Shown piece after piece: positions 1 through 48,290 of a stretch of DNA of 48,290 nucleotides. The first letter of the stretch is position 1. Each line of letters starts with the position of its first letter. The notes under the pieces are model-generated. The model searched no databases. It was not told the DNA's origin and was given only the letters and a program-made list of their open reading frames with translations. A program made the position numbers and the translations under genes. This DNA comes from a virus, in the IMG/VR virus record IMGVR_UViG_3300046517_000579, positions 1 to 48,290 of that record; one strand, 5' to 3'.

Positions 1-62
1 CAATGGTCCCACGCTACGGCTATCAGTTGCCATTGTCTCAATATCGTCGCGTGGGACCATTG
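1..62. repeat. Fold-back inverted repeat at contig end
   Basis: Bases 1-13 (CAATGGTCCCACG) are the reverse complement of bases 50-62. The first ten bases are absent from the second copy of this locus near 48155-48164, where the reading frame is intact. This is best explained as a chimeric or fold-back read end extending the contig, not as a genomic hairpin. Confidence 0.7.
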
Positions 63-171
63 GCATAGTTAAGCCGATTGTTCCCCAAAATTGCGCATTC
101 CTATCCTCGAATAGCTTGCGACGCGCGCGTTTCATGCGCGTTGCAGCGCTTGTGATCTTTTCCCATATCAT
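1..171 (-). CDS. VWA/HEXXH protein, 5' part (junction-split)
   Basis: This is the N-terminal end of the gene whose remainder lies at 47132-48290. On the minus strand an ATG at 171 follows the ribosome-binding stretch AAAGGGATAG. It adds 12 residues (MIWEKITSAATR) in frame to the MKRARRK start seen at the right end of the window, giving a protein of about 397 aa once the circle is closed. The frame matches the right-end copy exactly down to base 11. Bases 1-10 diverge and probably are not genomic. The fragment has no domain of its own; function is discussed under 47132-48290. Confidence 0.8.
   Translation of the reverse strand, partial: MIWEKITSAATRMKRARRKLFEDRNAQFWGTIGLTMPMVPRDDIETMATDSRSVGPL
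11..136. repeat. Direct terminal redundancy, left copy
   Basis: These 126 bases are identical to 48165-48290. Because a gene reads in frame through the joined ends, the redundancy closes the map into a circle of about 48,154 bp. It could be an assembly overlap of a circularly permuted genome or, less likely, a short true terminal repeat. It lies inside a coding region, which argues against a dedicated packaging end. Confidence 0.9.
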
Positions 172-212
172 AGCTCTATCCCTTTCGGTTTCTAGCAGCC
201 AATCCACTAGCT

Positions 213-245
213 ATTGACCACGGCTTAGCTATTGCCGTGGTCAAT
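213..245 (-). other. Perfect hairpin between MoxR and VWA genes
   Basis: A 12-bp perfect inverted repeat (ATTGACCACGGC / GCCGTGGTCAAT) with a 9-base loop lies between the stop of the AAA+ gene (257) and the ATG of the VWA gene (171). It has no T-run on the minus strand, so it is more likely an mRNA-stabilising, processing or attenuating structure than a full terminator. The CCGTGGTCAA half recurs at 1362-1371 and near 2996. Confidence 0.6.
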
Positions 246-256
246 CTGCTAACGGA

Positions 257-1306
257 CTAAGCCGCGATATCGTCGCCCGCGTTGTCTTGATTGATTTTGA
301 ACGCGACATGTTCCGCCGTTGTGCGGAACATATCATCCTTGGCAATTGCCAGTGACCAGAAAGCCGCTTGGTACAGGCTATCAACGCGTTTGATATACGT
401 TGCGATGGTAGCGATATTTGCCATGGTCAAGCGCGACACTAATCCTACGCCTATCGCGTAATTGATCGAAGGTTCATGCGGAACATGAACGTTCATTGGA
501 TCAATCATGATTGCGTCAACGTTAGGTGCAAGCCGATATGTCGCAAGAAAATTCATAAGCGCGTCGCTGTTATCCTCGCCAATGTTTTGAGCAAACAAGC
601 GACGCAATTGAGTGTCTTTCGGCATAGGGTTCATTCGCAGATATTTGTCGCAGCGCGCCAATGAACGCGGCGTCACAAATGCGATTGCGTCGCTTCCGGC
701 TTTTTCAGGATAGCGATGCAACGCGTTCAAGCCTTCCGCCTTGCCTTTTTGTGCAGCGCTTTGAATGTACGCGACAAGGATAGGCGAAACGTTTGACACT
801 GCCCACGCGAGCCATGCTGCTACGTCAACTTCGATTTCTATGATTGCGAGACGATTAGACATGGCGCGAGATATCTTTTGCGCTGCCGCCTTGTCTTGAC
901 CGCGATTGCCAGTAGCAACAATCCGCCAGCCTTCGGGCAAGCGATAGCCCGGCAACTCGCGTTCAAGGATTAGCTGATTTAGCGCGGCTTGAACGGACAA
1001 TGACGCGTCCGTTAATTCGTCTAACATCAAAATACCTTCGTTGCCGTCGCGCGCTGCTATCGGCAGCCATGCCGGAACATACGTTGCAATCAAGCCTGTC
1101 GCAGTATCGGGCATAGGCAATTGAACGTCTGTCGCATCCATTTGAGACGCGCGCTTGTCAATCACTGGCCAATTACGTTTGGCTGCACATTGGCGCACTA
1201 AATCTGTTTTTCCTACGCCAACGGGACCAATAACTACCGTAGGAATGAACGCGTCAAGATTGACAGACAAATCAGCGGCAGCATGCGCGAGAGTGTATGC
1301 GGTCAT
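257..1306 (-). CDS. MoxR-like AAA+ ATPase
   Basis: A 349-aa single-domain AAA+ ATPase of the MoxR/CbbQ type. Walker A is GPVGVGKT at residues 27-34, Walker B ILMLDE at 92-97, a sensor-1-like VATGN near 132-136, and a TPRS motif near 212 in the sensor-2 region. MoxR ATPases act as chaperones or remodellers and are typically paired with a VWA-domain partner; the next gene downstream encodes one. The AGAAAGG stretch precedes the ATG by about 10 bases. It is the middle gene of the three-gene cassette, with perfect hairpins on both sides. The substrate is unknown. The AAA+ class is clear; the MoxR label rests on motif layout and neighbourhood. Confidence 0.85.
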   Translation of the reverse strand: MTAYTLAHAAADLSVNLDAFIPTVVIGPVGVGKTDLVRQCAAKRNWPVIDKRASQMDATDVQLPMPDTATGLIATYVPAWLPIAARDGNEGILMLDELTDASLSVQAALNQLILERELPGYRLPEGWRIVATGNRGQDKAAAQKISRAMSNRLAIIEIEVDVAAWLAWAVSNVSPILVAYIQSAAQKGKAEGLNALHRYPEKAGSDAIAFVTPRSLARCDKYLRMNPMPKDTQLRRLFAQNIGEDNSDALMNFLATYRLAPNVDAIMIDPMNVHVPHEPSINYAIGVGLVSRLTMANIATIATYIKRVDSLYQAAFWSLAIAKDDMFRTTAEHVAFKINQDNAGDDIAA

Positions 1307-1356
1307 CTTAGTTGCCTTTCTAGGCTAGCAGGGAGACGCGCCAATCGCGTTTCCGT

Positions 1357-1383
1357 CTTGCCCGTGGTCAAACCACGGGCAAG
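1357..1383. other. Perfect 11-bp hairpin in cassette spacer
   Basis: CTTGCCCGTGG and CCACGGGCAAG form an 11-bp stem around a TCAAA loop between the first and second cassette genes. It lies just downstream (minus-strand sense) of a second strong hairpin at 1391-1419 and may pause or process the transcript. Confidence 0.6.
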
Positions 1384-1390
1384 AGAGAAA

Positions 1391-1419
1391 CGCGCGCCTA
1401 GCAGCGTGCTAGGCGCGCG
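1391..1419 (-). terminator. Strong hairpin with T/C-rich tail, possible attenuator
   Basis: A 13-bp perfect stem (CGCGCGCCTAGCA / TGCTAGGCGCGCG) with a 3-base loop starts six bases past the stop of the 1425-2312 gene. On the minus strand it is followed by TTTCTCTCTTG, a broken T-run. This looks like a partial rho-independent terminator that could reduce read-through into the MoxR gene. A similar hairpin plus CTTCTCTCT layout follows the VWA gene. Confidence 0.55.
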
Positions 1420-1424
1420 AAACG

Positions 1425-2312
1425 CTATGCCATAAAATCAGAAACGGCCGTAACAATCTCTTTTGCTTTTGCCGTCACGTCGCGACGCAACGCGGCGTCA
1501 ATCCGCAAGTCTTCCGCCTCATGTTCTGTGATTGCTTGCATATCGGCAATCAATTGCGAAACGCGTTTATCATTGGCAAAATTCAAGCCGGGCATAACAT
1601 CAATCAAATCGCGTATGTTTCCGACAAGCGTATCGCGAAATGTTCCCTTGTCTTTTCCCGTCGCGCTAGGCTGATAAGCGTCAAGACTTTCGACCATATG
1701 CGCAACTACCTCATGAACGCGACTAAACGTATTCATTGCGGCAGCGGCAGCGCGATCATGCAAGACGGCGCTGATATCAGCGCGTACGCGGTCAATCGCG
1801 TCTTGCCCGATATCAGCGCGGAAATCAGCTTCGTTTGGGATGGGCAATGTACGCGTACGCCATGCAAATTTGTGCGCAATGCGTTCCACAGCGGGATAAT
1901 CCGAGCCGTTCCATAGCTTGCCAAGCGCGACATATTCGTTTGCGGCTTGCTCGCGTAGCAAGGGATATTCGGCAACGAAGCGCGGGACCAAATCAGCGAA
2001 TTTCGCTTCTCCGCGTTCCATACCGTCGCGATATTTCTCATGATTTGAAATATGAAGGATACGCGAGCCGTTATCAAACCACGGGCTAGTACAATGCATG
2101 TGATGCAAGCGCGTTTGCATCACAACATTATTAATCTCTGTGAGCAAGCTAGACGCGACAAGCTTTTTTGAAACATGAGCGGACTTCGCATGCGCGTTAG
2201 CGGCGTCCGTCAAATCAGCGCTAGCCTTCTTATCAATCTTGCGAGCCGTCCATTGCGACACAGAGAAATCAACTAGCATGGTGCTAGATGCGAGATGCGA
2301 ATAGCGAGACAT
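1425..2312 (-). CDS. Unknown 295-aa protein of the MoxR/VWA cassette
   Basis: I do not recognise a named family. The 295-aa protein is soluble, mostly predicted helical, with no signal peptide or membrane segment. It has a conserved-looking central stretch (residues about 75-150, rich in His, Trp and Tyr) and an acidic helical C-terminus. The ATG at 2312 is preceded by AAAGGG. It is the promoter-proximal gene of the minus-strand cassette that continues with a MoxR-like ATPase and a VWA/HEXXH protein, so it may be a substrate, adaptor or target of that pair. This is inference from position. Its own promoter and leader hairpin lie immediately upstream. Confidence 0.75.
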   Translation of the reverse strand: MSRYSHLASSTMLVDFSVSQWTARKIDKKASADLTDAANAHAKSAHVSKKLVASSLLTEINNVVMQTRLHHMHCTSPWFDNGSRILHISNHEKYRDGMERGEAKFADLVPRFVAEYPLLREQAANEYVALGKLWNGSDYPAVERIAHKFAWRTRTLPIPNEADFRADIGQDAIDRVRADISAVLHDRAAAAAMNTFSRVHEVVAHMVESLDAYQPSATGKDKGTFRDTLVGNIRDLIDVMPGLNFANDKRVSQLIADMQAITEHEAEDLRIDAALRRDVTAKAKEIVTAVSDFMA

Positions 2313-2332
2313 GAGAGAACCCTTTCAAAGCG

Positions 2333-2353
2333 GCCTTGCGCCAATCGCAAGGC
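2333..2353 (-). other. Leader hairpin of the MoxR/VWA operon
   Basis: GCCTTGCG and CGCAAGGC form a perfect 8-bp stem with a 5-base loop in the 5' leader of the cassette, directly upstream of the ribosome-binding GAAAGGG (2321-2327). It could affect translation initiation or mRNA life. Confidence 0.45.
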
Positions 2354-2361
2354 GAGACACT

Positions 2362-2390
2362 CATATAAAGCGAATGCGTTGCGTAAACAA
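2362..2390 (-). promoter_or_regulatory. Candidate sigma70 promoter for MoxR/VWA operon
   Basis: On the minus strand TTGTTT (2385-2390) is separated by 17 bases from TATATG (2362-2367), about 50 bases before the ATG at 2312. Spacing is ideal; the -35 match is weak and the -10 moderate. It is the best candidate in the region. Confidence 0.4.
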
Positions 2391-2501
2391 GCGCTTTTTT
2401 GTGGAACATGAACGCGTACGCGTTGAATAGAATTCGGGCTAAAATATGGCGAGAAACAAATGATTTTTGGCAAGCGTGTAAAAACAATCAATTTTGAGAA
2501 T

Positions 2502-2638
2502 GGCGGAATTCCACAGAATGGCTGAATTCCGCCGTCGCAAGCCTATGGCTCAAATCAGCCATTGTTGCATTTTTGAATCGGTTCAAATGACTATACTTGA
2601 CCAATATTTGGCCATAATTAGCTTAAAATGGCGGAATT
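2502..2638. repeat. GGCGGAATT repeats
   Basis: GGCGGAATTC (2502-2511) and its reverse complement GAATTCCGCC (2524-2533) form a 10-bp inverted repeat with a 12-base loop. A third copy of GGCGGAATT is at 2630-2638. The related AATGGCTGAATT (2518-2529) lies in between. Confidence 0.6.
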
Positions 2639-3130
2639 GAGCCATTCTTTACAAAAGACGAAAACGCGCCAATTCAGTCTAAAATCATAACTTGCGGTGT
2701 ATTTTATGATCTCATGCACCAATTAGAAGTGGCCCTAGAAATTAGGCTCATATCGGCGGAACAATGTTAGTCCAATATAGCAAGAATGTACATTAAGGCG
2801 CGCTACCACCAATTAGGGGATATACTAGGCAAAAGCGCTTTACAAGTTTGGAGCCTAGAAGCAATACAGTATAAAAGCGAGCCTATATCAAAAAAATAGC
2901 GTACAGACGCGTACTGCGTAGCAGTATTTTATTGATATATGGCTGGTAGTCTAGGCTAGTAATCGAAGCGCAAAACGGCTTTTGAACGCGTTAGCCCGTG
3001 GTCAAGAGCGAGCGGAACAAAAGCCGGCTCGCGCGAGCGCACGCACGCGAGGGGAATTATACTCAAAGGGAGCAAAAAGAACGGGCTAAAAGCGCTTCAC
3101 GTCGCGAAATCATGATACGCGTAACTCATT

Positions 3131-3203
3131 ATGAGATGCGCATACAAATATGAGATGCGCATCTCACAATAAGACTTGCAACGCAATATGAGATGCGCAT
3201 CTC
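3131..3203. repeat. GAGATGCGCATCTC palindromes
   Basis: Two perfect 14-bp palindromes GAGATGCGCATCTC sit at 3152-3165 and 3190-3203, each in the context ATATGAGATGCGCATCTCA. A partial copy (ATGAGATGCGCAT) is at 3131-3143. Dyad sites at about 38-bp spacing suggest a dimeric DNA-binding protein. The ligand is unknown. Confidence 0.65.
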
Positions 3204-3370
3204 ATTATGAGACGCGACGCGTAGAAAACACGTTAGGCGCAACGCGTCGCGCGCAACGTGTTACACGCAACGCGTTATATGCGACAAATTGGCTTAAACG
3301 CGTTATTTACAAGAAAAGCGCTTGACACAGTATAGTTTAGCAAAATTGTTCTAATATCAAGTATAGTAAA

Positions 3371-3551
3371 GTGACAAATATGTCACATTACAAATTAGAA
3401 TAATATACCCTTGACAAGTATATCTTAACAAGAATGTCACATCATAGTACATATATGTCACATTACAGTATAGTAAAGTACATAAATGTCACACTACAGT
3501 ATTGTAAGTGTGACATATTTGTCACTCCATTTTACGTGACATATTTGTCAC
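3371..3551. promoter_or_regulatory. TGTCAC/GTGACA operator or iteron array
   Basis: Three full dyads of the form GTGACA-N4-TGTCAC lie at 3371-3386, 3510-3525 and 3536-3551 (the last two identical). Three half-sites TGTCAC lie at 3435, 3456 and 3487. Bases 3446-3476 and 3477-3507 are near-identical 31-bp direct repeats carrying a half-site each. The regular array points to cooperative binding by a phage or host regulator or by an initiator protein. It sits directly upstream of the candidate RNA at 3560-3948. Confidence 0.65.
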
Positions 3552-3559
3552 ACGGAGGG

Positions 3560-3948
3560 GTGGGGGGACTTTTTTGCTGCAACCTGGGATTGCTCTTCCT
3601 TGAAGTGTCTCAATTTACGCCCCAAAATCCCGCGCAGCAAATTTGTAAGGGACGTACAAATATGTAAAGGGCTGGGCTTTGTAGTGCGCGCAGTAGCAGT
3701 AAGGCATGGCTAGCAGATCAAGGGCACGATCAGGCTGAGAGAGCGCCAAGCCTACAGCGTGGTTATGCGGCTTTAGGCTAGGCTTGCGTCGCTACGGGCA
3801 ACGTGGTATGGCGTAGACCACGCCATACAGGCGAACGGCTAGCTGAGCCCATTCAGCGAGGGAGCCCCAAAGATTTCAATACCGCACTGATTGGGAACTG
3901 ATCTGCCAAACTCAGGGAGCTTAACAGAAATGTTAAGTTCCCTTTTTT
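3560..3948 (+). ncRNA. Candidate structured non-coding RNA with terminator
   Basis: No protein frame covers this stretch, yet it ends in a near-perfect plus-strand terminator (3915-3948), which implies a plus-strand transcript. Several helices are visible: CAAGCCTA (3747-3754) with TAGGCTTG (3779-3786), a perfect 9-bp hairpin GTATGGCGT/ACGCCATAC (3806-3814 with 3820-3828), and GCTGA/TCAGC (3842-3846 with 3853-3857). The 5' end is not defined; a start just downstream of the TGTCAC array is a guess. I do not recognise a known RNA family. Confidence 0.4.
3915..3948 (+). terminator. Rho-independent terminator
   Basis: The stem GGGAgCTTAACA / TGTTAAGtTCCC closes a GAAA tetraloop (3927-3930) and is followed by six T residues (3943-3948). 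Orientation is plus strand. The only plus-strand transcript it can end is one from the non-coding region upstream. On the minus strand there is no T-run after the stem, so it does not serve the small terminase gene well. Confidence 0.85.
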
Positions 3949-3949
3949 G

Positions 3950-4456
3950 TTAATAGCAGGAACTCACATCAAAATCGTCGTTTACAATTTCTGCATCAAT
4001 TACATTTTCGTCAATTAACAAAGAAGTGTCTTTTACAATAACGTCAATGACACCCTGCGCCCTAGCTTTGGCTCGCTGCAAGGCGTCAAGTACTTCGCGG
4101 TCAGCGGTGATCGTGTGTTCGACCACGCTGTGTGTTCCATATGACAACCGTCTACGCCGTTCCAGAAGCCATTTGATGTTCCCTGACACGACACTGGCTT
4201 GGCTGTCACGTGCTACACCATAGATGTGGTGGTCATATATCCGTGGCAGCGCTTCGGCCATAAGATCGTACAGACGATCTTCGGCTTCTTGTCGCATCTG
4301 AGCAAGCTGCGGGTAGCGCCCACCGACTTTTGTATAGTTAACAAATGTCGTATATGCCACGTGACACATATCGCACGCTACCGTTGGCTGGTAGCCTTGT
4401 GATATCGTTGTGAGTACGCGCAGCACGTCAGCTACGATGTCATATGGAACGGTCAT
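3950..4456 (-). CDS. terS: Terminase small subunit (putative)
   Basis: About 168 aa. The N-terminal half has a helix-turn-helix-like run (residues about 20-50). The C-terminal part (NIKWLLERRRRLSYG, then a helical Lys/Arg-rich stretch) resembles small terminase subunits, which recognise phage DNA and load the large subunit. It lies next to the large terminase on the same strand, but downstream of it, the reverse of the usual order. The ATG at 4456 overlaps the stop of the tiny upstream ORF (ATGA). A GTG at 4465 is an alternative start. Identity rests mainly on context and overall look. Confidence 0.7.
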   Translation of the reverse strand: MTVPYDIVADVLRVLTTISQGYQPTVACDMCHVAYTTFVNYTKVGGRYPQLAQMRQEAEDRLYDLMAEALPRIYDHHIYGVARDSQASVVSGNIKWLLERRRRLSYGTHSVVEHTITADREVLDALQRAKARAQGVIDVIVKDTSLLIDENVIDAEIVNDDFDVSSCY

Positions 4457-4563
4457 AGCTTCCACCCTCGCTTATATAAACCCCACCACAGTGGTCCGCA
4501 GACAATCGCGTATATGCCTAGCCCAATCGCCACGCCCATTACGCTAGAGAGTAAACTCGTCAT
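4453..4563 (-). CDS. Tiny membrane protein between terminase genes
   Basis: A 36-aa ORF beginning at an ATG that overlaps the last codons of the large terminase gene, preceded by AAGGTGGAAT, and ending in an ATGA overlap with the small terminase ATG. The sequence has one hydrophobic helix (VMGVAIGLGIYAIVCGPLWW) followed by a basic tail (KRGWK), so an inner-membrane protein with cytoplasmic C-terminus is likely. Function is unknown. Its tight coupling to both terminase genes supports it being real. Confidence 0.6.
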   Translation of the reverse strand: MTSLLSSVMGVAIGLGIYAIVCGPLWWGLYKRGWKL

Positions 4564-6076
4564 ATTCCACCTTTGCTTGGTTTCGTATACGCCAGTCTAG
4601 TCCACGATCACGTCGAACCACCTTGACTGCAAATGTAAGCATGAAGCTATCGGCGCGATCCGGGGAGTGTTCCCCTGTCCGCGATTTATATAACTCTTTG
4701 CTTTCCATTTTAAGCTTTTGCTCAAAACGGTCATATCCGTATTGCAGACCAGTCAGTTGCAGGAAAAACTCGTTATCGTCGTCTATGCAGCCACCATCGA
4801 CCAGCCAGTCTTTGCCCAAATGCCATATCTCGTCTCGTTTGCGATAGTACTTATCGGGTTCGGCGCTCATTGCGCCCGGCCAGAACTCGAATACCTTCAA
4901 ATGGTGGTTCTCACGCAGTTGGTCAATCACGCCGTCGCCGCCACCGGGTGCTTCGATCACAATTGCATCCGGGTGGTTTTGCTGGTATTCTTTCACGATG
5001 ATGTTTGTTAGCTGTACGGTGCTTATTCCCTTAAAGACACGTCGTTTGCGGCTACGGGCGTCTCTGCCCTGACGGTACGAAATGACGATCTCGTCGCCCC
5101 CGTATCGTGCAACGTCCACTGCCATGATAAGTGCTGCTTGTGCGTCGGGGTCAAGCGGTCTTGTTTGCGCATCTCTCGCCAAATCTTTTCCAATAAACTC
5201 GTTGAAAGCTTGATGCGGGAACTGACCGTATACTCTAACACGGGCTTCATCGCTGTCCGCTCCATACATCTTGATGATATCGGCGAGTGCCGACTTGTTT
5301 GTGTGCGAAACATCGCGGCTGTCCACGAATTCCGTGTCGTACATCTCTGCGTGCTTGTCAAAACAGTCCGCAAAGTCGCCAATTGGCTGCGTTGGGTTGC
5401 CAAATACAAGGAAAAACACCTCTCCATCAGTCGTTGCACCCGTTGCAGCCTCCCAAATCTTCGCATGAATGCCTGATGCTTCGTCAAATATCATCAAAAC
5501 GCTGCTTTCAGCGTTGTGTAGCCCTTGAAATGCCTCCGTATTGTCTTCACCGACCGTCATAGCGGTCATCATGTAGTTTTTTCGCACTGCGTCAGGCACT
5601 AAACCGCTTGAATAGCTCGTTGCCTGCCAGTTGAACCACTTTTTGAACAAAAATATCGCGTGCCACTTCGCTAATTCGGGCCAAGTCTTGTCTTCAAGCT
5701 GTTTTTGTGTATTCGCAGTAATGACGCCACGCGCCATAGCCCTTGTCGCCATAACCCACTGTATCACCCATGCGACTAGCGCAGATTTCCCAACGCCATG
5801 GCCAGAAGATCGGGCTGATCTCCATACAAGCGGCTCTAAGCCAAGCGTGATCCGTTGGTCGTTCTCCTGTACGTGTTTGCCCAGCTTCGTCAGCAGTCTT
5901 GCTTGCCATGGCTCTGGTCCAGTTCTGTTGTGTAGTGGATTAAAGCTTCCATCAGGCAATTGTGGCTCGCCCCACGGGTACGCGGCCTTCACGAACCCCA
6001 ATGGGTTATCCCTGAAGCCGGCTGCAAACTCGGCCAGTTGCTTGTCTGTCGAGAGCGGAACCACTGACATCCCCAT
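4544..6076 (-). CDS. terL: Terminase large subunit
   Basis: The 510-aa DNA-packaging motor: ATP-driven translocase plus headful or end-cutting nuclease. The N-terminal ATPase carries Walker A GHGVGKS (residues 92-98) and Walker B VLMIFDEA (193-200). The C-terminal RNase H-like nuclease begins with MAVDVARYGGDE (318-329) and has a late acidic site in HSPDRADS. Length is normal. It is divergent from the plus-strand virion operon, with only 61 bases between the start codons. The start used is the ATG at 6076; a second ATG two codons on is also possible. The next two genes are a tiny membrane ORF and the small subunit. Confidence 0.95.
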   Translation of the reverse strand: MGMSVVPLSTDKQLAEFAAGFRDNPLGFVKAAYPWGEPQLPDGSFNPLHNRTGPEPWQARLLTKLGKHVQENDQRITLGLEPLVWRSARSSGHGVGKSALVAWVIQWVMATRAMARGVITANTQKQLEDKTWPELAKWHAIFLFKKWFNWQATSYSSGLVPDAVRKNYMMTAMTVGEDNTEAFQGLHNAESSVLMIFDEASGIHAKIWEAATGATTDGEVFFLVFGNPTQPIGDFADCFDKHAEMYDTEFVDSRDVSHTNKSALADIIKMYGADSDEARVRVYGQFPHQAFNEFIGKDLARDAQTRPLDPDAQAALIMAVDVARYGGDEIVISYRQGRDARSRKRRVFKGISTVQLTNIIVKEYQQNHPDAIVIEAPGGGDGVIDQLRENHHLKVFEFWPGAMSAEPDKYYRKRDEIWHLGKDWLVDGGCIDDDNEFFLQLTGLQYGYDRFEQKLKMESKELYKSRTGEHSPDRADSFMLTFAVKVVRRDRGLDWRIRNQAKVEYDEFTL

Positions 6077-6137
6077 TGCTTAGAAAACACGTTTATGCCA
6101 TGTTCGCCAAATTCAAATCAAGCCAAGGACCACGAGC
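6077..6137. promoter_or_regulatory. Divergent promoter region (terL / virion operon)
   Basis: This 61-base spacer must hold the minus-strand terminase promoter and perhaps the plus-strand virion one. On the minus strand TTGATT and CATAAA are separated by 18 bases, a modest sigma70-like match. No clear plus-strand promoter is seen. Confidence 0.3.
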
Positions 6138-6362
6138 ATGAGCCTATTTGGTGGCGGTGGGTCCAAAACCGTATACGTGCCGACACCGGCACCGCCGCCA
6201 CCCGTGGCGCGCAGCAAAGGCGTCGTTGACATGAGCGACAAGCAATACAAGAGTTTCGTGTCAGCCAATCCAAGTTCGTACGCTTCGAGCATTCTGGGTG
6301 GTTCAGCGCCTGCGCCAAAGAAGTCATACGCAGCGCAACTGTTTGCCGGTGGGGGCTTATAG
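6138..6362 (+). CDS. Small Gly/Pro-rich protein, unknown
   Basis: A 74-aa protein with a Gly-rich start (SLFGGGGSKT), a Pro run and a Ser/Ala-rich C-terminus; no fold is recognisable. It is the first gene of the virion operon and ends two bases before the portal gene. Small ORFs of this style precede the portal in several related podoviruses and are sometimes virion parts. The ATG follows ACCACGAGC, a weak ribosome-binding site. Confidence 0.65.
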   Translation: MSLFGGGGSKTVYVPTPAPPPPVARSKGVVDMSDKQYKSFVSANPSSYASSILGGSAPAPKKSYAAQLFAGGGL

Positions 6363-6364
6363 CA

Positions 6365-8170
6365 ATGGCTGATGGCAGCTATGGCGGCACGGGTAACAAC
6401 GTCAGCATCATGACGTTGAATGATGGTCAACGTCCAAATCCACGCGACATAATTATGTCGTACAAAGAAGCGCAGTCGATACGCTCGCCTTATGAGCAAG
6501 ATTGGAAGATGAATGCAGCGTTCTGCCTGCCACGCCACTATTCAAGCTGGCTGAGCGAAGGGCCGACGATGAACGCGCCGCAGTCGCGCGACGTGAAGCG
6601 CTATGCGTATGACGCGACAGCTTCAAGAGCGCTGCCAAAGTGGAGCGCCATTCTGCGTCGTCTCGCGACGCCTGATGGCCACAAGTGGCAGCGTTTGACG
6701 CCAAGCAATCCCGACTTGCTCAAGAGTTACAACGTTCGTGCGTATTTCGACGTGCTGACAGATTTGTTGTTCTCGTTGCGCTATGATCCGCGTGCGCTGT
6801 TCTCGCAGACGTGTGACGAGACGTATTTGGGGCTGGGCTGCTATGGCACAGCGCCAATACGCATCAAATGGCGCGACAAACGGCCAACCGACCAGAAGGG
6901 TGGTCTAGCGTTCAAAGCAATGCCACTGAAAGATATGTTCCCGCTGGCTGATGGCGACGGGATCATAGACACGATGTTCGTGCGCCTGTGGTACACAGCC
7001 CCACAGATCAAAAAGAAATTCCCTGCGTCGTCCATATGCCCATGTGTGCAGCGCGAGCTATCAAAGCCAATTCCGAGCAATACGCGTTATTTCGAGATTG
7101 TCCACGCGGTGTTCCCGCGTGACGTAGCCCGGTATGATCCAACGACGCTCACGGTCAATCGTCACCCGTTCATTGGCTGTTTCATATGCGTGGAAGAGAG
7201 CGAATACATGGGGCCGGAAGACGGGTTCGCCAGCTTCCCATATCTGGTGCCACGCACGGCAACTGAGCCCGGCCAGTTGTTTGGCTTCTCTCCCGCGCAG
7301 CAAGCCAGCCCGGCAATGGGCACGGTCAACGCGATGAAGAAGACGATGCTGCGCGTTGCCCAGAAGAAAGCAGACCCGACGCTATTAGCGAGCGACGACG
7401 GGGTACTATCCGGGCGTTTGGGGCTGACGCCCGGATACGTAAACTATGGCGCGCTGAACTCGCAAGGCATGGAACTCGTCAAACCACTGGACGTGGGCGA
7501 TCTCAATCCAGCCAAAGACATTCTCGCCGACGAACGCGGCGACATAGACGATGCGTTCTTGGTCAATCTGTTTCAAATACTGATCGAGACGCCAGAGATG
7601 ACGGCAACGGAAGTCATCGAGCGTGTGGCGGAGAAAGCAGCGCTTGCCGCTCCAACGATGGCAAGACTACAGGGTGGTTTCTTGGGGCCAGAGGTTGAGC
7701 GCGATCTGGCGTTGATAGCCGAGAACGCGCCATACCTCATGCCAATGATGCCGCCTGAGTTGATCGAAGCACGTGGAGAATACGAGATTGTTTACACATC
7801 GCCCTTGGCCAAAGGGCTACACGCGGAAGAGGACTCCGGGTTTCTGTATATGGTTCAGTCGTCGATTGAAGTCGCGACGGCGACAGGCGACCCAAGTCCC
7901 TTGGACCACTATAACTTCGATGTGGCCATCCCTGAACTAGCGGAACACCGCTCAGTGCCAACGCGTTGGATGAACACACCGGATCAAGTCGCGCAGCTAC
8001 GCCAAGGCCGGCAGAACCAGCAAGCGCAAGCCCAGATCGCGCAAGCGGCACCGTCGATTGCGAAGATAGCCGTGACGGGTAAACAAGCGCAGCCTGCGGC
8101 AGCGGCGGGCGCTGGCGGTGGTATAACGTCACGTGGTGCAGTCAATTACAGCGGTGGTGCCGGTGGCTGA
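6365..8170 (+). CDS. Portal (head-tail connector) protein
   Basis: A 601-aa protein of the podoviral head-to-tail connector family. The N-terminus (SPYEQDWKMNAAFCLPRHYSS) and the central EPGQLFGFSPAQQASPAMGTVNAMKK region fit this family, whose members form the dodecameric ring at the packaging vertex. A Gln/Ala- and Gly-rich C-terminal tail (residues about 545-601) is typical. It follows the terminase region and precedes a Bbp19-like protein and scaffold, the usual order. ATG at 6365. Confidence 0.93.
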   Translation: MADGSYGGTGNNVSIMTLNDGQRPNPRDIIMSYKEAQSIRSPYEQDWKMNAAFCLPRHYSSWLSEGPTMNAPQSRDVKRYAYDATASRALPKWSAILRRLATPDGHKWQRLTPSNPDLLKSYNVRAYFDVLTDLLFSLRYDPRALFSQTCDETYLGLGCYGTAPIRIKWRDKRPTDQKGGLAFKAMPLKDMFPLADGDGIIDTMFVRLWYTAPQIKKKFPASSICPCVQRELSKPIPSNTRYFEIVHAVFPRDVARYDPTTLTVNRHPFIGCFICVEESEYMGPEDGFASFPYLVPRTATEPGQLFGFSPAQQASPAMGTVNAMKKTMLRVAQKKADPTLLASDDGVLSGRLGLTPGYVNYGALNSQGMELVKPLDVGDLNPAKDILADERGDIDDAFLVNLFQILIETPEMTATEVIERVAEKAALAAPTMARLQGGFLGPEVERDLALIAENAPYLMPMMPPELIEARGEYEIVYTSPLAKGLHAEEDSGFLYMVQSSIEVATATGDPSPLDHYNFDVAIPELAEHRSVPTRWMNTPDQVAQLRQGRQNQQAQAQIAQAAPSIAKIAVTGKQAQPAAAAGAGGGITSRGAVNYSGGAGG

Positions 8171-8519
8171 GCAGAACATTGATGCGGCGGACCCACTTGA
8201 CCCGAGCGATATACACGCGGCCGAACAGCTTGCGTTGGAAACGCGTGAAGAGGTCATTGCGCGTAAACAGGCTAAGCTACGCGCACGACGCGATAGCTAC
8301 AGGCGGCTATTTGCTGGCAATGCTATGCCTGACGACCATGATATTGTGTTGGCTGATCTCAAACGTTTTTGTCGTGGTAGCCAAACTCCATGGGACGCAG
8401 ACCCACGTGTACACGCGCTTCTCACAGGCAGATTTGAAGTTTACAACAGAATAGTCAATCACTTAAATATGTCGTTTGACGACCTGTGGGAAATGCTAGA
8501 AGGACCGAGCAATGAGTAA
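8163..8519 (+). CDS. Bbp19-like phage protein
   Basis: About 118 aa. The core YRRLFAGNAMPDDHDIVLADL, a following RFCRG, then GRFEVYNRIVNHLNMSFDDLW matches the Bbp19-type proteins of Bordetella phage BPP-1 and relatives, whose role is unclear but which lie next to the portal gene. The start used is the GTG at 8163, which overlaps the portal stop by 8 bases; an upstream in-frame GTG at 8133 would add 10 residues. The gene overlaps the start of the scaffold gene by 8 bases. This is one of the better pointers to the BPP-1/Bcep22-like group. Confidence 0.8.
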   Translation: MAEQNIDAADPLDPSDIHAAEQLALETREEVIARKQAKLRARRDSYRRLFAGNAMPDDHDIVLADLKRFCRGSQTPWDADPRVHALLTGRFEVYNRIVNHLNMSFDDLWEMLEGPSNE

Positions 8520-9441
8520 CGGCGGTGGAATAGGCGGCGGTGGCAACGAAGGTGGCGGTGGTGGTCAGTCAGCGCCGGCTGTGCCATGGGCTGGCGCTGG
8601 TGAAAATCAGATTTGGACGATTGGCGATAAGCCATGGTATGAGACGGCAGTGCCGGATGGACCGGCACGTGAGCTATTTCGTGCCAAGAAGTACGCCAAC
8701 CCAGCGGTACTCGCAACGTCGTACGCTGAACTAGAGCGTACCAATGCTTCGCGTGACGACAGCAAGATGGTGCGCTTGCTGGACGACAACGCGAAGCCAG
8801 ACGATGTAAACGCGTTTTATGAGCGCTTGGGGCGACCGAAGACGCCTGAAGGCTACAAAGACGTGAAGTGGGGCGACAACGTTGACCCTGCCATGAAGGA
8901 ATTCGGCACCAATCTGGCGTTCAAGCTGGGTCTAAGCCCGAAGATGGCTGAGACGGTGATGGCGCAAGAATGGAATGCGTTTGTCGGTAAGATGAATGCA
9001 CAAGCTGCTGACGCCGAGAAAACCACAGGTGCGCAAGCACTGGCAACGTTGAAAGCCGAGTGGAAAGGCGATTTCGACGCCAACAAGGCGAAGGGACAAC
9101 AAGTTTTGACCGCACTGAACCGTGCTGGGTTCAGCGAAGCGGATATGTCGGCGCTGGAGAAACACATTGGCGTCGTGCCGGTGGTAAAGCTGCTGGCGAC
9201 CATTGGCAAGCTGTCAGGAGAGGGTAAATTCATGGAAGGCGGTGGCGGTGGTGGACAAGCTGATCCGGCGACGATGACTGCCGAGCAAGCGAAGTCAATG
9301 ATTACGCAGAAATCCATGGATAAGGATTTCCAAAAAACATACATGGGTAAACACGAGCCCGGTCACGATGACGCGGTAAAACTCATGGAGAACTTGTACA
9401 AGAAAGCTGGCCCGCTGATGGGCGGCGCAGCAACACCGTAG
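8512..9441 (+). CDS. Capsid scaffolding protein (putative)
   Basis: A 309-aa protein located between the Bbp19-like gene and the capsid gene. A Gly-rich N-terminus is followed by a stretch containing RPKTPEGY (residues near 110) that is typical of podoviral scaffold or head-assembly proteins, then a highly charged helical middle, a second Gly run and a helical C-terminus. Scaffold proteins guide procapsid assembly and are then lost. Assignment is by position, composition and resemblance. Confidence 0.7.
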   Translation: MSNGGGIGGGGNEGGGGGQSAPAVPWAGAGENQIWTIGDKPWYETAVPDGPARELFRAKKYANPAVLATSYAELERTNASRDDSKMVRLLDDNAKPDDVNAFYERLGRPKTPEGYKDVKWGDNVDPAMKEFGTNLAFKLGLSPKMAETVMAQEWNAFVGKMNAQAADAEKTTGAQALATLKAEWKGDFDANKAKGQQVLTALNRAGFSEADMSALEKHIGVVPVVKLLATIGKLSGEGKFMEGGGGGGQADPATMTAEQAKSMITQKSMDKDFQKTYMGKHEPGHDDAVKLMENLYKKAGPLMGGAATP

Positions 9442-9451
9442 GAGACGATAG

Positions 9452-10075
9452 ATGGCAAAACGTGGCAGAGGCTATGGTTTCGAAGCTGATGAAGCTGATG
9501 CTGGTGCGGCTGACCCCGACGCGCTGCCGCCCGGTGCTGGCTCTGTTACCGTCAAGGACACTGCCGGCAACGACGTTGCGGTGGTGATTACAGCCGAACA
9601 GGCACGTGTATGGTGGGCCAACGTGCCGCCAAAAGCCCGGCTTGAGTATCAGAAGAACTTCGTCAACGCGAATGCGCCAACCGACGATGAACTGGTTGCG
9701 GCATACGTTGACGCGCATGCGCCGGCAACGCCAGAACGCGCGAATGCGTGGTGGGATACGCTGTCAACGGCAGACAAGAAGGCATATCAAGACAGCCTGA
9801 TCGAAAAGCCGGCTGACGACGTACTGGTCAAGCTGTACGACAGCGCACATGCGCTCGAAACGCCAACGGCGCTGGCGGAAGACACACCGCCACGCGTACA
9901 GCCGGCAACGCCCGGCGCAAGCGCGACCAATCCTGATCTGATGTTCAACGACGCAGTGCCGTTGGAAGACGTGCCGCTGTACGCGGGCTCGCCTCGCCGG
10001 CAGTACCAGCCGCCAAATACGACGCTTCCAGAGGGTGCTAGGGCGCGCGGGCAGGAGCGGATGCGGGTTTCCTAG
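9452..10075 (+). CDS. Unknown protein with two internal repeats
   Basis: A 207-aa protein of no recognised family. Residues 49-90 and 95-134 are two copies of one unit: both have a WW pair, a helix with a central K-Y-Q, an LV-x-x-Y segment and end in D-x-A-H. Flanks are Ala/Pro-rich and disordered. It sits between scaffold and capsid, before a strong terminator, so a head-assembly or minor head role is likely. The start is preceded by the AGGAGACGATAG ribosome-binding block, which is nearly the same as that before the tail fibre gene. Confidence 0.7.
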   Translation: MAKRGRGYGFEADEADAGAADPDALPPGAGSVTVKDTAGNDVAVVITAEQARVWWANVPPKARLEYQKNFVNANAPTDDELVAAYVDAHAPATPERANAWWDTLSTADKKAYQDSLIEKPADDVLVKLYDSAHALETPTALAEDTPPRVQPATPGASATNPDLMFNDAVPLEDVPLYAGSPRRQYQPPNTTLPEGARARGQERMRVS

Positions 10076-10144
10076 CGGGGACGAGCGAAAGCGAGCCCAC
10101 GGGGCTCCCAGCCCCCTTCGTGGGCCATAAGCCGACGCTCTTAG

Positions 10145-10185
10145 AGAGCCGGGAGGTATCAGCACCCTCCCGGCTCTTGTTTTTT
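10145..10185 (+). terminator. Rho-independent terminator before capsid gene
   Basis: A perfect 12-bp GC-rich stem (AGAGCCGGGAGG / CCTCCCGGCTCT) with a 9-base loop is followed by TTGTTTTTT. It ends the portal-scaffold transcript and isolates the capsid gene, which presumably has its own promoter. Confidence 0.9.
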
Positions 10186-10212
10186 ACAGAAAACGCGTTT
10201 ATTGCGTAGACA
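10183..10212 (+). promoter_or_regulatory. Candidate promoter for capsid gene
   Basis: TTTACA (10183-10188), an 18-base spacer and TAGACA (10207-10212) follow the terminator directly. The -10 has the TAGANA form also seen in the early-gene promoters near 44.7 kb. The match is weak, but a promoter is expected here. Confidence 0.35.
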
Positions 10213-10320
10213 TACAGGAAGCCTACCCGGACACCTTCCTGTTTCCATGGAATACGATGATCAACCCGTCAACGTGATCCAATCACGTGACACGTTGACC
10301 AGCCACGGAGACAGAAAGTC
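10213..10320 (+). promoter_or_regulatory. Capsid mRNA leader with two inverted repeats
   Basis: The leader contains ACAGGAAG paired with CTTCCTGT (around 10214-10243) and a perfect 9-bp repeat GTCAACGTG / CACGTTGAC (10268-10276 with 10291-10299) that itself encloses CGTGAT/ATCACG. Such 5' structures commonly stabilise abundant capsid mRNA. The ribosome-binding GGAGACAG lies after them. Confidence 0.45.
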
Positions 10321-11265
10321 ATGGCTGAGACAGTAGCTTCCTACTCAATCCCCGAAGCGCACGTATATATGTTCACGGATAATATCCGTGCAACAATCGC
10401 ACGAGCCGGTGGTCTTGTGTACCCGTATGTGTCGATGGGCTCATACGTTGGCGAACGTGTTCAGGTGGTCAACTTCATTGGCCCGGTTGAATTCGTTCAG
10501 CGTGATACGCCATACAGCGACACCAAGCTGACTGAACTCGAACACACGAGCCGTTGGATCAACGGCTTCGAATACGACGTGGCAGTCCTGATCGACAGGC
10601 TTGACACGTTGAAGATGATCTATGATCCGACTTCGCCGTATGTGGATCGTTTCCGGCAGGCACACGAACGGAAACGTGACCAGATCGTGGTGGATCAGTT
10701 CTTTGCGGACGCGAAGGCCGGCAAAGACGCTAACATCGTCATGTCCTACAAGGCCGCGAATACAATTGCGGCAGGAACGCTTGGGACCACGGCGGCTGGC
10801 TTTACGACGGCGAAACTGCGCGCGTTGCGCAAGTTGATGAAGAAGCGCAACCTTGACCTTCGTTCGATCAAGCCGATCATTCTCGTCACCAGCGAGGCAA
10901 TTGACGATCTGATTGGTGACACGAATTCGGCCGGTCAGGGGCTCACAACGTCGTCGGATTACGCGGCCATCAAAGCATTGGTGGACGGCGAGATCAATTA
11001 CTTCATGGGCTTCCAGTTCCAGCCCTTTGAAGACTACAATGCTAGGGGCATTCCTTATCTGGCTGGCTCAACCGTCGTGCGTCAGTCGCCGGCATGGATA
11101 CCGGATGGCATGCACTACGGCACTTGGCAGGACTTGGTTGTCACGATCAGCAACCGGCCCGATAAGAACAACATCAAGCAAATACACGCAACGTTCACAG
11201 CCGGTGCAACCCGGCTGGAGGAAGACAAGGTGTTTGCCATCGCGTGGGACGAGACAGCACCGTAG
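10321..11265 (+). CDS. Major capsid protein
   Basis: A 314-aa protein of the HK97-fold capsid type found in BPP-1-like podoviruses (Bbp17-like). Features: an N-terminal segment, a central region with a DRFRQAHERKRDQIVVDQFF helix typical of the spine region, an LRKLMKKRNLD segment, and a C-terminal domain ending in a β strand with AIAWDETAP. The gene is isolated by a terminator upstream and a hairpin downstream, as expected for a highly expressed capsid gene. The assignment is firm from position and sequence look. Confidence 0.9.
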   Translation: MAETVASYSIPEAHVYMFTDNIRATIARAGGLVYPYVSMGSYVGERVQVVNFIGPVEFVQRDTPYSDTKLTELEHTSRWINGFEYDVAVLIDRLDTLKMIYDPTSPYVDRFRQAHERKRDQIVVDQFFADAKAGKDANIVMSYKAANTIAAGTLGTTAAGFTTAKLRALRKLMKKRNLDLRSIKPIILVTSEAIDDLIGDTNSAGQGLTTSSDYAAIKALVDGEINYFMGFQFQPFEDYNARGIPYLAGSTVVRQSPAWIPDGMHYGTWQDLVVTISNRPDKNNIKQIHATFTAGATRLEEDKVFAIAWDETAP

Positions 11266-11282
11266 TTGTGGCACCGGGCTGC

Positions 11283-11318
11283 GGCTGGGCATAATGCCCA
11301 GCCGTGTCTGTCCGACAC
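11283..11318 (+). other. Tandem hairpins after capsid gene
   Basis: GGCTGGGC/GCCCAGCC (8 bp, loop ATAAT) is followed at once by GTGTC/GACAC (5 bp). No T-run follows, so this is likely an RNA-processing or stabilising element that sets capsid expression above that of downstream genes. Confidence 0.55.
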
Positions 11319-11333
11319 AGAAGGAAGACGAAA

Positions 11334-11816
11334 ATGGCAGTTGTAGTATTCGACCCACTGAGCGCCGCACCGGGTTATTTGAAGCGGCCAATCGACAGTC
11401 ACGGCAAGCTGCGCACAATCTATGGGAAGATGGTGGCAGCGACGCTTGGCGACATTGGCAGCACGATCAACATGGGCGTGCTGCCTTCCGGCGCAGTACG
11501 GCTGCGTTTTGCCGGTTGCAGTATTGTGCATTCGGCGTGGGGTGCTGGCGCGCTGCTTAACATTGGCTATGCGCCATATCGCTACAAGCAGGATCAGAAC
11601 GCAGTCGGTGACGGCATTGATCCCGGCAGCGCAAATGCACTTGGCCCGGCAATTGATATGTCGGCAGCGTCGGTAGCACGTACGGCGTGGCAGGCTGCGT
11701 TGATGAAATACGACTTCTACAGCGTAGCTGGCGTCAGCATCATCGGCACGGTGGCCGGCGCGGTGGTCCCGCAGGCAGCGACTGCCGAATGGTGGATAGA
11801 GTACGTCTACGAGTAA
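11334..11816 (+). CDS. Capsid cement/decoration protein (putative)
   Basis: A 160-aa, β-rich protein encoded directly after the capsid gene, the place of the Bbp16 cement protein in BPP-1. Contents: an N-terminal strand region, a central CSIVHSAWGAGALLNIGYAPY run, a YKQDQNAVGDGIDPG loop and a hydrophobic C-terminal part. A jelly-roll cement role is inferred from position and length, not from a recognised motif. The ATG at 11334 is chosen because AGAAGGAAG lies 6-10 bases upstream; an in-frame codon at 11304 lies inside the intergenic hairpin. Confidence 0.6.
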   Translation: MAVVVFDPLSAAPGYLKRPIDSHGKLRTIYGKMVAATLGDIGSTINMGVLPSGAVRLRFAGCSIVHSAWGAGALLNIGYAPYRYKQDQNAVGDGIDPGSANALGPAIDMSAASVARTAWQAALMKYDFYSVAGVSIIGTVAGAVVPQAATAEWWIEYVYE

Positions 11817-11844
11817 ACGAGACTAGCTATGGGAGCGCCAAGCC

Positions 11845-12462
11845 ATGCCAAGCATGAAAGACATCTGCAACATGGGGCTAGGCAAGCTTGGCGCTTCCCG
11901 CGTCAACAATTTGTCGCCGCCAATCAGTACGTTGGAAGTCAAGTGCGCTGCTGAGTACCCACAGTGGAAAGCCAGCGAGCTACGTAAACGCCGCTGGGTA
12001 TTTGCAACGGTTCTAACCTCGTTAAGCGCGTTAACTGAACCTGCACCGGCTGGTGCTGCGACTGACGGGCGGGTATTCAAGTTTCAGAAGCCCGGCGACT
12101 TGCTGCGCGCAATCAGGCCCAAGAATTGCACGTGGGTACAGCGTGGTGAGTTTTTCTACGATTTTCAAAACACCATTGTGCTTGAATACATTCGTAACAC
12201 GCCTGACAGCGAAGTTACGGACGCGTCGTTTGTCGAGCTACTGGCTTGCCGCGTAGCTGTTGAATGCGCTGAACTTGCAACGCAGTCGCCTACGAAGAAG
12301 CAGTTTGCTGTGACCATGCTTGTGCGCGCCGAAGAAGAAGCTGGCCGGCTGAACGCATTCGTGCTTGACCCGCATGACGTAGATGGTGACGACGGCGCAT
12401 TCACGTGGGACAATGCGCGCGTGATGCCAGAATTCAGTGGCGAACAAGGCAAGTGGTGGTAA
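11845..12462 (+). CDS. Tail adaptor (tail tubular protein A-like)
   Basis: A 205-aa protein resembling T7 gp11-like adaptors: the start MKDICNMGLGKLGASRVNNL, then a W-rich KASELRKRRWVFA helix, a Pro-rich loop, and a DFQNTIVLEYIRNTPD strand followed by helices. This ring joins the portal to the tail nozzle. It is followed immediately by the nozzle-like gene. GGGAGCG serves as ribosome-binding site. Confidence 0.85.
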   Translation: MPSMKDICNMGLGKLGASRVNNLSPPISTLEVKCAAEYPQWKASELRKRRWVFATVLTSLSALTEPAPAGAATDGRVFKFQKPGDLLRAIRPKNCTWVQRGEFFYDFQNTIVLEYIRNTPDSEVTDASFVELLACRVAVECAELATQSPTKKQFAVTMLVRAEEEAGRLNAFVLDPHDVDGDDGAFTWDNARVMPEFSGEQGKWW

Positions 12463-15400: not shown

Positions 15401-15759
15401 TCCCGTACGTGATACAAGGCGAGATAGTCGCGCCAGAAAGCGGCGCTGGCGACGGTGGCACTGCGCAAGGTAAGTCCAAGCGCCCGCATAGCGTTGTACT
15501 CAGACTATGGCAAAGCGCTGGTGGCGAGGTTGGCCGTTGGGACGAAGATCACGGCGAACTCATGTGGACGCCATGTGAGTACAACTACCCAATGACCGAG
15601 AACATAGATGAGATCGTACTCAGGGACTGCCTGACAAACGTGACCGTGCTACCGGGTGGTTATGGGACGCTGGGCACGGTGGCGTTCAGGCAGACGCAAC
15701 CACTCCCATTCAACGTGGGTGGCGTGTACCCGCAGACATACGTCGAAGACGAGCGATGA
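12463..15759 (+). CDS. Tail nozzle-like protein with discoidin-like domains
   Basis: A 1098-aa tail tube/nozzle protein. The N-terminus (FSPLAEGRVDVDRYPRAMRY, then a C-rich NMVPCRTGPG) is characteristic of podoviral stabilisation/nozzle proteins, and the C-terminal two thirds contain LWCAGAAGFPDHVVGSYAGR and PTDGALTARN segments of the same family. Between residues about 270 and 570 lie F5/8 type C (discoidin)-like domains, which bind surface glycans. One (about 326-450) appears complete: HPAWQASDQSAATYW, then WYIDLG, then FRYYRINV. It sits inside a second that is split into 270-310 and 485-565. The start codon overlaps nothing and follows the adaptor stop directly. Confidence 0.85.
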   Translation: MARTSPIHNVLEGEFSPLAEGRVDVDRYPRAMRYMQNMVPCRTGPGIGRSGTYFERQCIEPAYASKILPFEYNEDETLQLEFGHYLLRFHYEYNTIAAYREAPVSYVVSVNPFTFYAPSNNFIRGNHVVLSGFAAQLNVNGRIFKVTNVSGGTVTTDGVAGTDAYVWGGSPVAAVVYEIATPYRRDDVQNIRLVQELNVCYLFCTKTDGSGDYMPYHLDRYDTFNWTMQPFPLADGPYMDINQTTTYLKPTGNGTWIPNMTSNVAPAPFVCAASSEVVGHEAFRAFDNDVDSYWEGNASQEGWLEYAFENGFTNSLPSFSGPTNGLMTISATSNASGHPAWQASDQSAATYWQASAALPQSWYIDLGAAQTVREYAIRACKPAEWFAPKNFTLSGSATGTGGPWTTVDTRVGIKWASGQRRQFTVKTPAAFRYYRINVTAVNNNYTVVKHPAVGIKGKKGYVAAYTTTTSTANVCAFTQAQLSYGSGTPKCVDGYTIYLGRYNKGQDVANHAPRTWYFEGYDGANWQLLDSQQGYESWGQFRSEYFPLKNREAYKKYRIRIKTVQQAGDVNPRIGKLVMSSPDAPLLTLTPTSKNGINDGRGFLPTDVGRMIRVRDADNIWRWTKITAVSTSDQIYLSMRSTDPFVLNAQVKFWRLGLWSNTTGWPICGVLHEDRLWCAGAAGFPDHVVGSYAGRHMFFQQVNRLDEVLDASAIVMRCNSRFMSRIVWLKSAVEALRVGTGKNEFVISTPTDGALTARNIKARITTQRGSYPHESIFVDNEVVFLQESGRALYNLSFSLTTTGVQIYKSTLMSKWGSHLLQPQVVQIVYQQEPHSVIWGRRSDGSVVAMTYSTDDDIYGGHRHDFGATIKDLSTLYSPTDKQHALWMVAMRTINGQDVHYIERLYRFWDFGDVLWEDATYMDSALRYYGTTPVDKVYGLTHLEGQYLSVLADGITYTGLGPVTNGMLALLRPATYIVVGLPYVIQGEIVAPESGAGDGGTAQGKSKRPHSVVLRLWQSAGGEVGRWDEDHGELMWTPCEYNYPMTENIDEIVLRDCLTNVTVLPGGYGTLGTVAFRQTQPLPFNVGGVYPQTYVEDER

Positions 15760-16190: not shown

Positions 16191-16201
16191 GAGGTAGCAC
16201 C

Positions 16202-47131: not shown

Positions 47132-48290
47132 CTAGCTAGTGTACAGGCAAAGCTTTTCGCCGTACGGTATACGCAGCGCTTCCGTAGCAGGCAGCGTGTC
47201 CGTAATTGCCCATAGCGTAGGTATCTCTGGATCAATACCGAAGCTTGACGTTTGACCGTCCGTCAAAAAGACAATCGCGGCGTAGCTTTCGTCACTATCG
47301 GCTATGTGTCGCATCACAGCGGCAAAATCAGTCCCACCGCCATTGCTAGCCTTGAACTGTATTTGTTCGCCATGTTCGTAATGGTCAATCGCTTTTACCG
47401 TAGTGTCCGTATAAATCACGTCTATTGCGTCGCATGCGTTGTCATCAAGCGCGCTTTGCGCTTCGATCAAAGCTTGATTAACTTTCTGCGTATCCATACT
47501 GCCGCTGATATCAACAATGAACGCGACAAGGCTAGGGCGAATTACCTTTTCGCCCGGCAATGCCATTCCCCTTGCATGGCCGCGACGTGAAAGCTTTGCC
47601 CATGATTGTTGACGCGAGCCTAGAACATCAATGAACGCGCGTAACGGCTGCCGCCAATCAATTGCATTCGGCAGATTACGCGTTGCGGACACATTTACCA
47701 ATTGCGTCGGAATATGCCCGCCAGCTAGCAAGCCGGCTTTGCGAGCCGCGCCTAGCGCTTGCGATACCGTCGCTTCGTTGCGTTCATTCAATTCGGCTAA
47801 TTGTTCGCCCGTCATTGGCGAGCCGTCATCATTCGTTGGTTCGATCATATCCCCGCTTCCGGGCACATGTCGCGGCGTCTTGCCTTGTCGCTTGTCTTGC
47901 TCGTTTTCGCGCGCAATCACATTGTAGATTTGTTCCGCTGCTAATCCCTTGAAGCGCGTTTCGTTCAAACAATCTTGCGTTAGCGTCAAGCCGGCTTGGA
48001 TCAAATCAGGGTTCAATTCGTAATCTGCCGCCATGTTCCATGTATGCGCGTCGCGTGTCCCTTGCCTTGCGAAATGCTGCAACGCTACATGCGATATCTC
48101 ATGAGCAATAACCCCCATGCATTCGGCTTCGCTTAGCGTCATCACGAATTCAGGATTATAAAAGACGCTACGGCTATCAGTTGCCATTGTCTCAATATCG
48201 TCGCGTGGGACCATTGGCATAGTTAAGCCGATTGTTCCCCAAAATTGCGCATTCCTATCCTCGAATAGCTTGCGACGCGCGCGTTTCATG
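47132..48290 (-). CDS. VWA-domain HEXXH metallopeptidase-like protein (main part)
   Basis: This is the main part of a protein of about 397 aa once the 12 N-terminal residues at 136-171 are joined. The N-terminal half is a zinc metallopeptidase-like domain with VIAHEISHVALQHF (HEXXH) and a downstream WNMAADYELN that could give the third ligand, as in DUF2201-type proteins. The C-terminal half is a VWA domain with the MIDAS motif DISGSMD, a GGTDF threonine site and IVFLTDGQT. MoxR ATPases work with such VWA partners; the MoxR gene is just upstream in the same operon. The substrate is unknown. Confidence 0.88.
   Translation of the reverse strand, partial: MKRARRKLFEDRNAQFWGTIGLTMPMVPRDDIETMATDSRSVFYNPEFVMTLSEAECMGVIAHEISHVALQHFARQGTRDAHTWNMAADYELNPDLIQAGLTLTQDCLNETRFKGLAAEQIYNVIARENEQDKRQGKTPRHVPGSGDMIEPTNDDGSPMTGEQLAELNERNEATVSQALGAARKAGLLAGGHIPTQLVNVSATRNLPNAIDWRQPLRAFIDVLGSRQQSWAKLSRRGHARGMALPGEKVIRPSLVAFIVDISGSMDTQKVNQALIEAQSALDDNACDAIDVIYTDTTVKAIDHYEHGEQIQFKASNGGGTDFAAVMRHIADSDESYAAIVFLTDGQTSSFGIDPEIPTLWAITDTLPATEALRIPYGEKLCLYTS
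48165..48290. repeat. Direct terminal redundancy, right copy
   Basis: Right copy of the 126-base repeat also found at 11-136. The base just before the repeat differs between copies (g at 48164, c at 10), which fixes the left boundary. The right boundary is the window end. Confidence 0.9.

Follow-up and report, generated by a model that had tools for sequence, protein, structure and literature searches.

The window, as we call the whole stretch of 48,290 nucleotides analysed here (virus record IMGVR_UViG_3300046517_000579), carries three consecutive minus-strand genes, as the earlier note on this DNA had described, encoding a 295-aa protein (hereafter X), a MoxR-type AAA+ ATPase and a protein with an HEXXH motif and a VWA domain (Table 1). 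An exact 126-bp repeat (bases 11–136 identical to 48165–48290) is found at the window ends, and the map therefore closes into a circle of 48154 bp; bases 1–10 repeat neighbouring sequence in inverted orientation and are probably an assembly fold-back artefact. The third gene does cross the circle junction, as had been claimed. Within the window it appears as an ORF (47132–48289, 385 aa) that is open at the window end, and on the circle it is complete (171–11 joined to 48164–47132, 397 aa, beginning MIWEKI...), with the same start codon as in two relatives (L002 and L005). Elsewhere the genome has the gene content of a tailed phage, with terminase, head-tail adaptor, major head protein and tail proteins, and it also encodes a primase-helicase, a polymerase, an ssDNA-binding/annealing protein, an exonuclease, a helicase and a resolvase. 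No near-identical phage DNA was found in INPHARED with window bases 1–20000 as the query.

Table 1. Positions of the three genes and of the gaps between them in the window.
Feature	Position	Strand	Remarks
X, DUF3150-like protein, 295 aa, putative third subunit of the trio	1425..2312	-	ORF
MoxR-type AAA+ ATPase, 349 aa	257..1306	-	ORF; Walker A GPVGVGKT, Walker B LMLDE, sensor 1 GNR, NR arginine finger
Zincin-like (HEXXH) and VWA (MIDAS) protein, bulk of the 397-aa gene	47132..48290	-	48165–48290 repeats 11–136
5' part of the VWA gene past the point where the circle closes, with its start codon at 171	11..171	-	11–136 is a copy of 48165–48290
X/MoxR gap, two strong hairpins	1307..1424	-	1391–1419 terminator-like; second within 1346–1394
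MoxR/VWA gap, hairpin TTGACCACGG...CCGTGGTCAA at 214–244	172..256	-	

The trio had been said to sit apart from the virion genes, which is only partly right, as the terminase genes (3950–6076) lie on the same minus strand 1.6 kb upstream; it does not adjoin the ssb, exonuclease or polymerase genes, located at 30–39 kb. A promoter of its own, also proposed, was not borne out: positions 1–4600 contain nine promoter-like (sigma-70) sites, against 7.9 expected in shuffles, and none lies just upstream of 2312. The gap hairpins at 1346–1419 and 214–244 have counterparts in the trio gaps of relatives L002, L004 and L008, and RNA processing or attenuation setting the subunit ratios is a possible role for them. 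The 1.6 kb at 2313–3949 contain no convincing genes and abundant palindromic repeats (GTGACATATTTGTCAC-like at 3371, 3446, 3510 and 3536; ATGAGATGCGCATCTCA at 3150, with its inverse at 3189; AAAAGCGCTT three times), and from its sequence this stretch appears operator- or origin-like.

The assignment of the second gene to the MoxR-like AAA+ ATPases with Walker motifs was upheld by a Pfam match to AAA_5 (35.9 bits, cut-off 22) and by its placement in phrog_1297 of PHROGs (3e-60); the protein has a dynein-related AAA domain with Walker A, Walker B, sensor 1 and arginine finger, and its gene adjoins a VWA gene. The VWA protein matched DUF2201_N (140.2 bits, cut-off 23.2) and the VWA-like DUF2201 (61.5 bits, cut-off 26.4) in Pfam and phrog_1314 (8e-79) in PHROGs, and the HEXXH (HEISH) and a full MIDAS (DISGS, GGGTDF, TDG) reported previously are both present. 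The VWA domain extends to residue 381 of 385, with no effector domain after it. The structure predicted for this protein, of moderate confidence (pLDDT 80.4, pTM 0.54), matched the expected VWA fold, and a chain of the NorQD complex (9qhe_G) was among its weak fold matches (E 6.3e-3). The metallopeptidase-VWA family phrog_1314 is labelled 'HNH endonuclease', apparently wrongly, and this label has spread to many phage annotations.

Protein X had been considered unrecognised and the new part of the cassette. Single-sequence searches of PHROGs, Pfam and INPHARED yielded nothing significant for X, and a match to SRP_SPB at E 0.05 was rejected as chance. Relatives of X were found in IMG/VR, leading to a Synechococcus/Planktothrix phage protein annotated as DUF3150 and to plasmid proteins. 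The window protein itself gave no match to Pfam DUF3150 (PF11348) at the gathering score, and close relatives reach 24.3, 18.4 and 14.9 bits, all under the cut-off of 24.9, whereas L105, recovered by the X-family HMM built here, passes with 41.5 bits and the DUF3150 protein of plasmid pCAR1 scores 309 bits; DUF3150 was the sole family matched in Pfam scans of the X family. Alignment of the phage X profile with that of the pCAR1/IncC-type DUF3150 proteins by hhalign gave a probability of 95.3 (E 2.4e-8, 152 columns, residues 11–167), and the AlphaFold2 model of X, built from 23 sequences and confident (pLDDT 87.2, pTM 0.81), matched a viral 'DUF3150 domain-containing protein' in BFVD (E 2.7e-17, TM 0.78). 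On profile comparison and predicted fold, X is a remote relative of DUF3150 by homology; since it remains under the Pfam threshold, we refer to it as DUF3150-like rather than as a Pfam member. It is thus no longer unrecognised, and what holds of its novelty is that the family has no known function and that our literature search found no paper mentioning DUF3150 by name. Against solved structures, the best Foldseek match of X had an E value of 0.65, and VIA-align returned helical bundles only (up to Z 10.4, on residues 174–295), within the chance range for helical models; such poor matches do not show a new fold.

Co-occurrence was assessed at DUF3150 loci of the core branch, which comprises the closer relatives of X, wherever 4 kb or more of sequence was available on each side; these loci lie in phages, conjugative plasmids and bacterial contigs. 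In this set, which comes from related-profile searches, includes many Burkholderiaceae and is therefore not an even sample, MoxR and VWA genes were both present, all on the same strand, at 77 of 77 loci. Among all 108 core loci there are seven exceptions, and each of them is truncated within 2.5 kb by the end of the available sequence. Scans of genome and virus collections, made with a plasmid-type alignment because a broad one proved too diverse to yield a pattern, provided 79 and 42 further loci. The claim that the three genes constitute one functional cassette is thus strongly supported, and of the two outcomes named beforehand as refuting it, that the genes never co-occur elsewhere or that X belongs to an unrelated virion or replication family, neither was found.

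The trio is kept together although its gene order varies (in one IMG/VR set, MoxR-DUF-VWA 25, MoxR-VWA-DUF 5 and DUF-MoxR-VWA 4), and a comparison of 51 neighbourhoods showed no further conserved gene. The nearest relatives of the window locus (L002–L005 and L008) retain the X-MoxR-VWA order; in phage MinM2 a stretch of 4.5 kb contains MoxR, DUF3150 and VWA; the genes follow one another directly as MoxR-DUF3150-VWA in plasmids of Rhodovastum, Cupriavidus and Burkholderia; and pCAR1 has AAA-DUF3150-NorD-like VWA. At one locus (L150:1110–3143), MoxR and DUF3150 are naturally fused in a single open frame of 678 aa (MoxR, residues 33–335; DUF3150, 375–672). The divergences of the three proteins are correlated (r 0.75–0.86, 0/2000 permutations, 44 dereplicated loci), in part because of shared descent. 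A terminase match was obtained in 13 of 20 IMG/VR trio records, so that many are true phages; the remainder may be fragments or other elements. Three phage records with different host names (OQ594354, OL906435 and PP438419) have the same length (65014) and the same match values, and probably represent one phage rotated or reversed. Among plasmids, DUF3150 was detected in at least 1139 of 72,556 records, mostly conjugative and including IncC resistance plasmids.

The ATPase and MIDAS residues of the trio proteins are nearly invariant. The Walker A lysine and the arginine finger of MoxR are each present in 108 of 109 proteins and the sensor 1 asparagine in 109 of 109, and the D, S and S residues of the VWA MIDAS are kept in 108 of 108. 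HEXXH is lost, with several different replacements, in 10 of 111 VWA proteins (L037, L060, L067–L069, L082 and L138–L141), while the MIDAS stays; proteolysis is therefore probably not the shared function, and the zincin-like domain would be a scaffold in at least some lineages. We infer from this pattern that the shared function is ATP-driven remodelling via the VWA adaptor. These data also bear on a role as virion assembly chaperone, which was proposed, on the model of Acidianus two-tailed virus, for the MoxR-vWA-metallopeptidase pairs that jumbo phages carry (PMC7824862). Applied to the trio, the set would fold, assemble or process proteins of the tail or capsid, and X would be an adaptor specific to the virion. 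The proximity of the trio to terminase genes in the window and in some relatives agrees with this proposal, and the families concerned, phrog_1297 and phrog_1314, are those matched by the window MoxR and VWA proteins. However, the loss of HEXXH is at odds with it, and the same trio occurs in conjugative plasmids, which make no virions, so that a purely virion-assembly role is unlikely; we consider it improbable overall. Unlike the window, the four phages with this pair that we examined had no detectable DUF3150, and hundreds of other phages likewise have a MoxR or VWA protein without it. The pair can therefore function when X is absent, or when an undetected analogue takes its place. In At2 and S-TIM5, the gene that lies downstream of VWA was rejected as a shared third partner.

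The trios of the Burkholderiaceae and Rhodovastum plasmids comprise the same three protein families (MoxR, DUF3150 and DUF2201 VWA), ordered MoxR-DUF-VWA rather than DUF-MoxR-VWA, with about one quarter to one third of the residues identical to X in the DUF3150 proteins. The IncP-7 plasmid pCAR1 has a module (ORF100–103) noted also in R478, Rts1, SXT and R391 (PMC2642839). In pCAR1 and the IncC plasmids, MoxR, DUF3150 and an HEXXH-bearing VWA protein (HECSH in pCAR1) are neighbours as in the window, but the VWA proteins are of about 600 aa and fall outside Pfam DUF2201, and the gene order differs, with ssb-bet-exo between AAA and DUF3150 in IncC.

Among cellular systems, NorQ-NorD, CbbQ-CbbO and RavA-ViaA similarly combine a MoxR ring with a VWA adaptor, but they have cellular clients, two components and no DUF3150. 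In NorQ-NorD, a 'finger' of the VWA protein enters the MoxR pore, and contact with the client is attributed to the MIDAS (PMC9976466, PMC13036017). Cofactor or metal insertion, as by NorQ-NorD or CobS-CobT, is a known role of some MoxR-VWA pairs (PMC13036017) and some records label the trio genes CobS or NorD, but no metalloenzyme gene recurs near the trio, and a chaperone for an element-encoded metalloenzyme is a quite improbable reading. The vWA-MoxR-VMAP ternary conflict systems (PMC7159879) are likewise built from a MoxR, a vWA and one additional protein, raising the question of kinship with a defence or superinfection-exclusion system. This we regard as very improbable, because those systems have an effector domain after the vWA, whereas the window protein ends at its VWA domain, and because the third protein here is DUF3150-like. 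A PADLOC scan of the trio also gave no significant match (best E 0.008, 12.9 bits, in the P-loop region of MoxR only).

We return to ATP-driven remodelling and suggest, with a probability of roughly 70%, that the three proteins form one remodelling machine of mobile elements. By analogy with NorQ-NorD, the MoxR ring would be the motor, and the VWA protein would be the adaptor, engaging the ring and gripping the client via its MIDAS metal site. The helical X would be a constant third subunit, coupling motor and adaptor to the client or presenting the client, a role suggested by its constant co-occurrence and the MoxR-DUF3150 fusion, although a single fusion and shared loci are no proof of a complex. 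The machine would belong to phages and conjugative plasmids and not to virion building alone, and its client would most likely be a protein or nucleoprotein complex needed by phages and plasmids alike to handle their own DNA within the cell (replication, annealing or establishment). DNA processing or establishment is our leading guess for the client, made entirely from gene neighbourhoods and followed by counter-defence. The hints are that the trio lies near ssb, recT or bet, and exo genes in the IncC plasmid pRMH760 and in PA83 and p26019-2, and that the strongly transcribed pCAR1 operon with the trio genes has a proposed role in transfer (PMC2642839). In an IncC plasmid, bet/exo are directly activated by AcaCD (PMC4207636).

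For counter-defence or host takeover, the role put forward in the earlier note, the machine would dismantle or inactivate a host complex attacking the incoming DNA. The presence of the trio in unrelated invaders, phages and conjugative plasmids, and the lack of a conserved host pathway neighbour beside it are consistent with such a role. However, the PADLOC library, which covers defence rather than anti-defence proteins, gave no match, MoxR, VWA and AAA are absent from the main text of a paper on anti-defence genes in plasmid leading regions (PMC11541004), and no experimental hint was found, so that we judge this role unlikely, if less so than the alternatives above.

A second, more distant branch of DUF3150, with members from Planctomycetes, deltaproteobacteria and elsewhere, lacks this MoxR and VWA, and at least one of its members passes the Pfam DUF3150 cut-off. 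In the members examined (L089–L106 and L022), a classical AAA ATPase adjoins, often together with a DUF1257-like gene, and ThiF, JAB, SSB or nuclease/helicase-like genes are nearby in some. Pairing with an AAA+ ATPase may thus be a general property of DUF3150 proteins.

The MoxR-VWA pair of phages and the trio neighbours of pCAR1 in plasmids were already known, and in the literature we found no account that treats the trio as a single machine present in both phages and plasmids. The proposal made here would link the DUF3150 family to phages and to one particular molecular machine. Genes of widespread plasmids that are so far uncharacterised would gain a direct, testable role, and phage and plasmid biology would be predicted to have a client in common. 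Tentatively, DUF3150 may serve as the dedicated third subunit of an AAA+ machine of mobile elements that acts at the same step after DNA entry in phages and conjugative plasmids, for instance in the remodelling of a host complex or the loading of recombination proteins onto the incoming DNA. If so, the trio would be an intracellular tool shared across two unrelated kinds of element.
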